From Arthrobacter wenxiniae (GTDB lineage Bacteria > Actinomycetota > Actinomycetes > Actinomycetales > Micrococcaceae), in the NCBI RefSeq assembly GCF_013376105.1, contig NZ_JAAMFM010000009.1, positions 1 through 64,000 of the forward strand: a DNA stretch of 64,000 bases. Reading direction: 5' to 3'. Made by a program: the position numbers and the translations under genes. How positions within the stretch are numbered: the first letter of the stretch is position 1; the number at the start of each line of letters is the position of its first letter. This document shows, one piece after another, positions 45,433 through 64,000 of the stretch. A model generated the notes under the pieces. That model worked only from the letters and a program-made list of their open reading frames with translations. It did not search any database and was not told the DNA's origin.

Positions 45433-45678
45433 CTACGTGGCGTAGGACATGACCAGGCCCAGGCCGATAATGACCACGCCCCAGGTGATGCCGAGCACGA
45501 CGGTGAATCGGTTGAGGTTGCGCTCGGCCACGCCGGAGGAGCCGAGGTTGGAGCTCATGCCGCCGCCAAACATGTCCGAGAGCCCGCCGCCCCGGCCCTT
45601 GTGGAGCAGGATCAGCAGGGTCAGCAGCAGGCTGGTGACACCCAGCAGGATCTGCAGGGCAATTTTCAGTGCTTCCAC
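45433..45678 (-). CDS. secG: Preprotein translocase subunit SecG
   Basis: A small subunit of the SecYEG channel, 81 residues with two transmembrane helices separated by KGRGGGLSDMFGGG, the SecG signature. GTG 45678 is chosen with AAAGG 6 bases upstream; the frame is open 12 codons before. A TAGACT hexamer at 45725-45730 may be its own -10. It is separated from tpiA by a repeat element. Confidence 0.93.
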   Translation of the reverse strand: MEALKIALQILLGVTSLLLTLLILLHKGRGGGLSDMFGGGMSSNLGSSGVAERNLNRFTVVLGITWGVVIIGLGLVMSYAT

Positions 45679-45750
45679 TTGAGGCCTTTCAGCGTGGTTC
45701 GTCTCATTGTCCAAGTCGCTCCCAAGTCTAGCGGTGTCCGTCCGTACATT

Positions 45751-45910
45751 GCGAACGCGCGCGGGGACGGCGTGGTGGGCCCACGCGCCCGAGGGGCCCC
45801 GTCTCGGCTCGCTTGCGAACGCGCGCGGGGACGGCGTGGTGGGCCCACGCGCCCGAGGGGCCCCGTCTCGGCTCGCTTGCGAGCCGAGACGGGGAGGGCG
45901 TGGGGACTAG
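45751..45910 (-). repeat. Palindromic repeat element, copy 1 (64-bp tandem duplication)
   Basis: Two identical 64-bp units (45751-45814 and 45815-45878) lie between tpiA and secG. They are followed by an arm completing a perfect 16-bp palindrome, CCCCGTCTCGGCTCGC / GCGAGCCGAGACGGGG (45861-45876, 45879-45894). The edge is a 20-base block ending CTAG (45891-45910) that contains the tpiA stop codon. A second copy of the family is at 63826-63968. The core GGGCCCACGCGCCCGAGG is shared. It may end tpiA transcription. Confidence 0.92.
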
Positions 45911-46722
45911 TTAGTGACGAGGTGGTTTTCGAAGCGGGCAATGTTCGCGAACTCGCCGGCGTCGAGGCTGGCCCCTCCCACCAGGACACCGTCGACGTCG
46001 CGCTCGGCCATGATCGCCGCAACGTTGGCCGCCTTGACGGAGCCGCCGTACAGCAGGCGGGTCTTGGCTGCGGTGTCCGCGTCGAACAGTTTGGACAGCT
46101 CGGCCCGGATGGCGGCGCAGAGCTCCTGGGCGTCCGCCGGTCCGGCCACTTCGCCGGTGCCGATGGCCCAGATGGGCTCGTAGGCGATGACCAGCTGGGC
46201 TGCCTGCGCGGCGTCCAGGCCGGCGACGGCGGCGCGCACCTGGGCGAGGGTGTGCTCCACGTGGGTGCCTGCCTGGCGGATCTGCAGCCCCTCGCCGGCA
46301 CACAGCACGGGCGTGAGGCCGTGGCGGAAGGCGGCCTTGACCTTGGCGTTGAGCAGTTCGTCGCTTTCGCCGTGGATCTCGCGCCGTTCGCTGTGCCCAA
46401 CCAGCACGTAGCTGCAGCCGAGCTTGTTCAGGAAGGCTCCGGAGATGTCACCGGTGTAGGCGCCCGAATCCTTGTCGGAGAGGTCCTGGGCGCCGTAGCT
46501 GAGCTTGAGCTTGTCGCCCTGCACCAGTGTCTGCACGCCGCGAATGTCGGTGAACGGGGGGAAGACGGAAACTTCAACCCGGGAAAAGTCGTGCCGGGCG
46601 TCGGACAGCGTCCATGCGAGCTTCTGCAGCAGCGTGATGCCCTGGACGTGGTCCATGTTCATCTTCCAGTTGCCGGCAATCAGCGGTGTGCGGTCAAATG
46701 TCCCGTTGGTCGAAGTGGTCAT
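45907..46722 (-). CDS. tpiA: Triosephosphate isomerase
   Basis: It interconverts dihydroxyacetone phosphate and glyceraldehyde-3-phosphate. In 271 residues the catalytic Lys (GNWKMN), His (GHSERR) and Glu ([10 protein letters not shown]) are all visible. ATG 46722 is preferred, with GAGAG 4 bases upstream; the frame opens 13 codons earlier. The stop TAG lies inside the edge of a repeat element. It follows pgk on the minus strand. Confidence 0.97.
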
Positions 46723-46785
46723 CGCTCTCTCGTTTCTTGCAGTGCTCGAAATGGAAATCATGGCGGCCCGGCGTGGGGCGCGCCT

Positions 46786-63825: not shown

Positions 63826-63968
63826 GTGGGAGGGCGTGGTTGGGCCCACGCGCCCGAGGGGCCCCGGCTGACGCGCCAGCGTTGGCGTGGGAGGGTGTGG
63901 TTGGGCCCACGCGCCCGAGGGGCCCCGGCTGACGCGCCAGCGTTAGCCGGGGAGGGCGTGGGGACTAG
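63826..63968 (-). repeat. Palindromic repeat element, copy 2 (61-bp tandem duplication)
   Basis: Two units of about 61 bp (63826-63886, 63887-63947) are nearly identical to each other. They share the GGGCCCACGCGCCCGAGG core and a 20-base edge block (63949-63968) with copy 1 at 45751. The edge again ends in CTAG and contains the stop codon of the next gene. The last arm folds as CCCCGGCT...AGCCGGGG with an inner GACGC/GCGTT. It is the same fold as copy 1 with different bases. Confidence 0.9.
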
Positions 63969-64000
63969 CCGTAGAGTTCGAACCTCACCTGGCCCCCTGC
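63965..64000 (-). CDS. C-terminus of a gene running off the window
   Basis: Eleven codons and a TAG stop remain, encoding AGGQVRFELYG. The reading frame is chosen by analogy with tpiA, where the repeat edge carries the stop. The family cannot be told from this fragment. Confidence 0.5.
   Translation of the reverse strand, partial: AGGQVRFELYG

Follow-up and report, generated by a model that had tools for sequence, protein, structure and literature searches.

REP-like hairpin repeats behind stop codons in Arthrobacter, a candidate family of non-autonomous mobile DNA

Repeated hairpins between tpiA and secG

The window studied here, the first 64,000 nucleotides of contig NZ_JAAMFM010000009.1 of Arthrobacter wenxiniae, carries a repeated hairpin element between the genes tpiA and secG (Table 1). 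The original prediction for this DNA, made from its letters alone, had described in this gap two identical 64-bp units, a perfect 16-bp palindrome and an edge block shared with a relative 18 kb away. All of these proved to be real: the inverted repeat closes on a loop of 2 nt, and the edge block, GGGAGGGCGTGGGGACTAG, is found exactly at 45892-45910 and 63950-63968, the expectation being 0.04 occurrences in the window with up to three mismatches allowed. The position between the two genes was likewise borne out. On the minus strand the element adjoins the stop codon of tpiA, and its boundary could be refined to 45906, the first base past that stop; from there to about 45754 it comprises two units followed by an incomplete third left arm.

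The repeat unit has the layout TCCCC-N6-TCCC-(stem-loop)-GGGNCCCTC-N6'-GTGGGCCCA. The element has two stems, P1 and P2, with an NCCCTC bulge, and units follow one another in head-to-tail arrays. The perfect 64-bp duplication takes in native host flank, with which its ends share TCGCAA, and at the equivalent site of another genome (G021) the units are of different sequence and spaced by 63 bp; the duplication was therefore rejected as a family feature and is regarded as local.

The predicted relative at 63826 was confirmed and is itself tandem, with cores at 63842 and 63903. This second locus (about 63826-63964) repeats the layout of the first and follows directly on the stop codon that closes a PIG-L deacetylase gene. 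When folded as RNA, the tpiA element exceeds its shuffles in stability (z -4.6); the second locus is not exceptional against shuffles (z -1.2), which counts against a strong RNA fold there. Motifs similar to the TAGACT upstream of secG exist at the tpiA-secG site in genomes both with and without the element. The window gave no match to Rfam RNA families at the gathering score, and a known RNA family was thus rejected.

Table 1. Features of the two loci in the 64,000-nucleotide window
Feature	Positions	Strand	Basis and remarks
tpiA, triosephosphate isomerase	45907..46761	-	ORF; Pfam PF00121, E 1.4e-88; stop TAG 45907-45909
CTAG tag (C + TAG stop), directly 5' of the element	45907..45910		Sequence
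Element unit 1, TCCCC-ACGCCC-TCCCC-stem-loop-GGGGCCCCTC-GGGCGC-GTGGGCCCA	45840..45906	-	Sequence, fold
Variable stem-loop P2 of unit 1	45861..45894	-	Arms 45861-45876 / 45879-45894; 16 nt, 100% complementary
Element unit 2	45776..45839	-	Sequence; left arm with host-flank-like bases, poorer pairing
Perfect 64-bp tandem duplication	45749..45876	+	Repeat comparison (45749-45812, 45813-45876)
Partial third left arm	45754..45775	-	Sequence; limits approximate
TAGACT, putative -10 box of secG	45725..45730	-	Promoter role inferred
secG	45433..45678	-	Pfam PF03840; GTG start 45678 inferred from relatives; ORF open to 45714
PIG-L deacetylase gene, 3' end	63965..64000	-	Stop TAG 63965-63967; continues to contig position 64663
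Second copy, unit 1	63902..63964	-	Sequence
Second copy, unit 2	63841..63901	-	Sequence
Second copy, partial third left arm	63826..63840	-	Sequence; limits approximate

A dispersed family in the genus

Many copies had been anticipated in the genome. Indeed, a 24-nt core with up to three mismatches gives 14 matches at nine loci of the own genome, and none when the pattern is read backwards; the 18-nt core has little discriminating power by itself (four matches in the window against 0.76 expected, with the same tolerance). A core pattern is present throughout the genus (23 of 23 genomes) and, among 35 relatives beyond it, in G031 alone. A general pattern with free stem letters occurs in 51 of 295 Micrococcaceae genomes, namely in 23 of 23 within the genus (367 matches, 2-54 per genome) and in 28 of 272 outside it, which belong to five genera and have 1-6 matches per genome. 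Read backwards, the same pattern has no match in any of the 295 genomes. The expectation of a dispersed, REP-like palindromic family, placed at gene ends in one strict orientation, is borne out; what had been named as contrary to it, the lack of further copies or copies inside genes without orientation bias, did not occur. Spread by phages is unsupported, the window unit having no match in phage records at E 0.001 and viral contigs no exact match to the pattern.

The analyses that follow are based on a strict pattern with 174 matches, from among which the first 140 of 150 listed copies were read with their flanks; none of the 140 comes from G000, G001, G002, G009 or G022, and G019 contributes 8 of 17. 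From TCCCC to GTGGG these listed copies measure 54-67 nt, and CCCA then follows. The strict pattern leaves the letters of P2 unconstrained and dictates the frame and the CC/GG in P1, which are therefore conserved by construction.

Placement at stop codons

Directly before the element stands a stop triplet in 126 of the 140 listed copies, drawn from the 174 strict matches; the other 14 do not adjoin one. In the frame of that stop, 113 of the 126 have at least 100 open codons, a length that the two remaining frames reach in 16 and 12 copies. Furthermore, an independent annotation (NZ_CP012477.1, Arthrobacter sp. ERGS1:01) ends the CDS of an inorganic diphosphatase at the TAG that precedes an element.

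The stops are strongly skewed: TAG 98, TAA 24 and TGA 4 before listed copies, as compared with TAG 364, TAA 250 and TGA 385 (36/25/39%) in a baseline of 999 genes called by a simple, purpose-written ORF caller. C before TAG is also enriched (73 of the 98 TAG stops at listed copies vs 152 of 364 in the baseline), and the tetranucleotides preceding the 140 listed copies are mainly CTAG (73), CTAA (17), GTAG (12) and ATAG (9). Such a tag bias would be natural for a purely selfish repeat without host function, its placement resulting from tag preference and the purging of harmful insertions, and the uneven copy number in the genus (2-54) and the nested copies described below fit that account too. 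Nevertheless, 70 of the 73 listed CTAG copies lie at ORF stops, although non-coding CTAG sites outnumber CTAG stops by about 2:1 (297 vs 152, the former including short genes missed by the ORF caller). The tag alone therefore does not explain the placement, which seems to reflect both a preference for the tag and the survival of copies at gene ends. As both-sided stem changes at shared gene ends also speak against it, we consider a purely selfish repeat rather unlikely.

The downstream neighbour is convergent for 72 of 120 listed copies, no downstream gene being called for 6 of the 126 that adjoin a stop, vs 392 of 996 in the baseline. From the stop to the next codirectional gene, the median distance is 167 at listed copies vs 42 in the baseline, weak evidence given that the length of the element is part of that distance. 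A terminator had been among the roles first suggested for the repeat, but there is no terminator-like site at the tpiA locus, and only 4 of the 140 listed copies have TTTT within 20 nt downstream, so that a canonical intrinsic terminator was rejected. One copy of genome G014 (L323, 1305-1359) lies in frame within the SAICAR synthetase gene (purC), in an ORF open from 1226 for 327 codons through the copy.

Stem pairing and turnover

In the 65-nt class (53 distinct copies) the consensus fold has 24 pairs and 96.3% of the cells are paired, against 28-46% when slid by 1-3; in the 55-nt class (41 distinct copies) the figures are 96.3% and 30-57%, the consensus fold being derived in both cases from the tested copies themselves, which favours high pairing. 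A fixed-arm test, which uses no derived fold, gave for the long class 597 paired positions out of 657, where shuffling gave a mean of 310 and a maximum of 345. Moreover, this class shows 68 distinct left arms among 73. The genome is GC-rich and the short core by itself is weak, as would suit palindromes arisen by chance in GC-rich DNA; nevertheless, the covarying stems and the forward matches in 51 of the 295 genomes, against none for the backwards pattern, led us to reject chance, whose probability we regard as negligible. Among 790 pairs, G.T (22) is not in excess over A.C (36), and the data thus do not show RNA rather than DNA as the folded molecule.

Copies occur in at least two genomes at 24 shared gene ends vs 3.9 expected, a count made on the 117 of the 140 listed copies with a readable upstream frame and in groups that may mix paralogs, since they were formed at 55% ungapped identity over the last 30 residues. 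Sharing of gene ends is also expected from vertical inheritance. The constancy of the frame at these gene ends carries no weight, the frame having served to find the copies. In 28 ortholog pairs of the same length, which are not independent, 111 stem pairs are the same and 77 have new letters in both arms with pairing kept; among those unpaired in one copy, 8 show changes in both arms and 20 in a single arm.

Both the shared gene ends and this preponderance of paired changes, like the excess of convergent neighbours, favour an immobile, vertically inherited 3'-end element with a function, whose stems would drift under compensatory selection and whose nested copies would be arm duplications; stacked left arms in genome G012 go in the same direction. 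Its role could be that of an mRNA 3' hairpin, a terminator without U-tract or a stop-proximal ribosome brake. However, 24 of the 52 ortholog pairs differ in length, there is neither a U-tract nor a wobble signature of RNA, and termination would leave the bias for C before TAG and the avoidance of TGA unexplained. To these are added the nested copies and the patchy tpiA site treated below, and we judge such an element, in any of these roles, to be quite improbable.

Complementary turnover might have another source. For RNA genes, PMC8794818 describes hairpins maintained by template switching, with multibase complementary stem changes. By analogy with these changes, template switching could make both-sided stem changes at once in the present case, a dispersed repeat instead of an RNA gene. 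Near-identical dispersed copies are few, as 13 of 771 within-genome pairs differ at four or fewer positions, and this counts against mobility.

Traces of insertion

The junction CTCGCAAG^TCCCC, in which a copy starts within the loop of another, is present 16 times in 8 of the 23 genomes of the genus. According to a strict test, in which the right halves of the inner and then of the outer copy must follow, with five or more of the six P1 pairs formed in both, six of the 16 are clean nests (L436, L439, L440, L442, L445 and L446), three of them (L439, L440 and L446) seeming to have one gene end in common. The P1 letters of the inner and outer copies differ in five of the six and are alike in L442, a difference that counts against the vertically inherited, immobile element. 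So does the pair L263 and L271, which share an identical inner copy but have unlike outer left arms; in L263 the right half of the outer copy is incomplete. When the flanks were joined in silico at L264 and L271, the only two caught by the pattern, the outer hairpin folded.

Of the ten junctions that fail the strict test, some consist of left arms stacked on one another (three in G012), some have an outer copy from a related subfamily, and in others a right half is incomplete or missing; arm duplication is accordingly an alternative for some junctions. In L433 (G012), one loop holds a stack of three left arms and just one right half that matches, a hint that arms are duplicated in addition to whole units being inserted. 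One pattern for reverse-oriented nests gave none at the loci examined, and no target duplication was seen in the nests that were read.

Six of the 23 genus genomes are occupied at the tpiA site, G000, G021, G020 and G002 by full copies, G015 by a changed copy and G013 by a remnant; the other 17 have none. Even sister genomes disagree, G020 being occupied and G012 empty. On a tree of 24 rows, in which one of four outgroup rows was kept, this occupancy requires four changes, at least three of them forced by well supported branches, which could be gains or losses; 49 of 500 shuffles need as few. The element was absent from the site in the 13 outgroup loci read, out of 80 loci. Such patchiness argues against strictly vertical descent. 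Conversely, the changes may be losses, and would then weigh against mobility.

Search for a mobilizing enzyme

A transposase had been suggested as a possible mover of the family, but the own genome has no match to PF01797 (Y1_Tnp) at E 1 and none to the RAYT model NF047646. Across the genus, NF047646 is over the cut-off in 0 of 23 genomes, with weak matches (E 1 or less) in five, two of which are the same TnpA genes that PF01797 finds in 2 of 23 genomes, both near a TnpB gene. TnpB is over the cut-off in 2 of 23 genomes, and a third, weak match exists in G011. These counts led us to reject mobilization by a RAYT or IS605 gene that most of the genus would still carry. The Y1_Tnp and RAYT models recover matches in known control genomes; a strongly diverged enzyme could escape them.

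In two of the 23 genomes an IS200/IS605-type tnpA lies about 1 kb from the tnpB match (L166 in G019 and L167 in G017). No transposase was found between inverted copies in the loci scanned; one such locus holds a short ORF that by eye resembles WXG100.

Comparison with known systems

A search of the literature, with most subscription journals outside its scope, returned no paper describing this family of hairpin repeats. The nearest known elements are the GTAG REPs and their RAYTs, as presented in passages of PMC3733652 and PMC2817692. Both they and the present repeats are short, dispersed, mostly extragenic palindromes, one end of which carries a tetranucleotide whose last letters are TAG; both often lie behind ORFs, vary by complementary stem changes and are held to be non-autonomous. 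GTAG REPs often supply the TAG stop, and RAYT genes can be lost, according to the same pages of PMC3733652. However, the tag here is mainly CTAG (GTAG accounts for the 12 listed copies noted above), the unit exceeds the 20-40 bp given there for REPs, and the RAYT gene flanked by REPs in those systems has no counterpart over the cut-off in the 23 genomes. The element works like a REP but fails in these three defining features and is better treated as a variant than as a member of that class; two stems with an NCCCTC bulge and head-to-tail arrays further set it apart. CGTC-tagged REPs, in the lines that PMC3733652 devotes to them, are likewise palindromic without a dedicated transposase, and differ in tag and hosts.

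In Escherichia coli, an excerpt of PMC12306157 counts 446 of 4,072 REPs within 15 nt of a stop codon and relates, after an earlier study, that stop-proximal REPs stall ribosomes and lower translation; the hairpin lies next to the stop in both cases, here in 126 of our 140 listed copies. That excerpt includes Arthrobacter livingstonensis with counts only.

MITEs of the IS200/IS605 group leave no target duplication and go in on the 3' side of a fixed tetranucleotide. The present family shows a CTAG bias and six clean nests, yet its tag is not strict. Such MITEs have a parent IS with TnpA or TnpB, whereas here TnpA is found in two of 23 genomes and TnpB passes its cut-off in two.

A possible mode of spread

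We favour, with a probability of about 0.6, a REP-like, CTAG-tagged, non-autonomous mobile DNA hairpin that is kept at gene ends. The covarying pairing, the placement, the tag bias, the nested copies and the presence and absence at one site were observed directly; the searches found no known mover, and this counts against it. The unit, of some 54-67 nt from TCCCC to GTGGG followed by CCCA, would insert as a discrete piece of constant orientation, immediately 3' to a CTAG-like tetranucleotide (CTAG or CTAA, and CAAG in loops). Such tags would be offered by stop codons, by some -10-like boxes and by the loops of older copies, and the copies that persist would be those behind stop codons. Tandem arrays, among them the 64-bp duplication, would arise later through local slippage. 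The hairpin would be transferred in single-stranded, folded form, and the Y1-like enzyme responsible would since have been lost, be rare or have escaped recognition. In turn, a benefit as an mRNA 3'-end hairpin would explain persistence at gene ends, and new stem letters would arrive in complementary sets through template switching.

A more speculative version, which we think unlikely, invokes an unrecognised activity, other than the Y1 kind found here, that would move the folded hairpin into CTAG-like tags and existing loops, the stems being rewritten as complementary sets so that structure and not sequence is inherited.

The passages on REPs cited above tie the GTAG type to RAYT transposases and to other phyla (PMC3733652, PMC2817692), the former listing Proteobacteria, Cyanobacteria, Chloroflexi and the PVC group, and no Actinobacteria in that passage. 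With a large actinobacterial family that bears a different tag, shows traces of insertion and has no detectable mover, the mobilization of orphan REPs becomes testable. Furthermore, the same gene ends carry, in different species, stems that diverge by complementary sets, and these constitute a natural data set on compensatory evolution.

Related and composite copies

A related subfamily, tandem and with CTAG at its unit boundaries, is found at three loci of the own genome (L027, L032 and L039) and at one of G012 (L447), and its last CTAG lies inside a TAGGCT that resembles by eye the -10 box of the next gene. Similarly, at C1:19353 of the own genome (L048) and at L283 of G021, the CTAG seems by eye to be part of a TAGGCT -10-like box of the opposite-strand gene, and not of a stop. 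Finally, a longer common 5' sequence ending in GATAATCCCC precedes copies L277-L279 (G021), L310 and L316 (G006) and, in the own genome, L051 and L052, which perhaps form a larger composite repeat.
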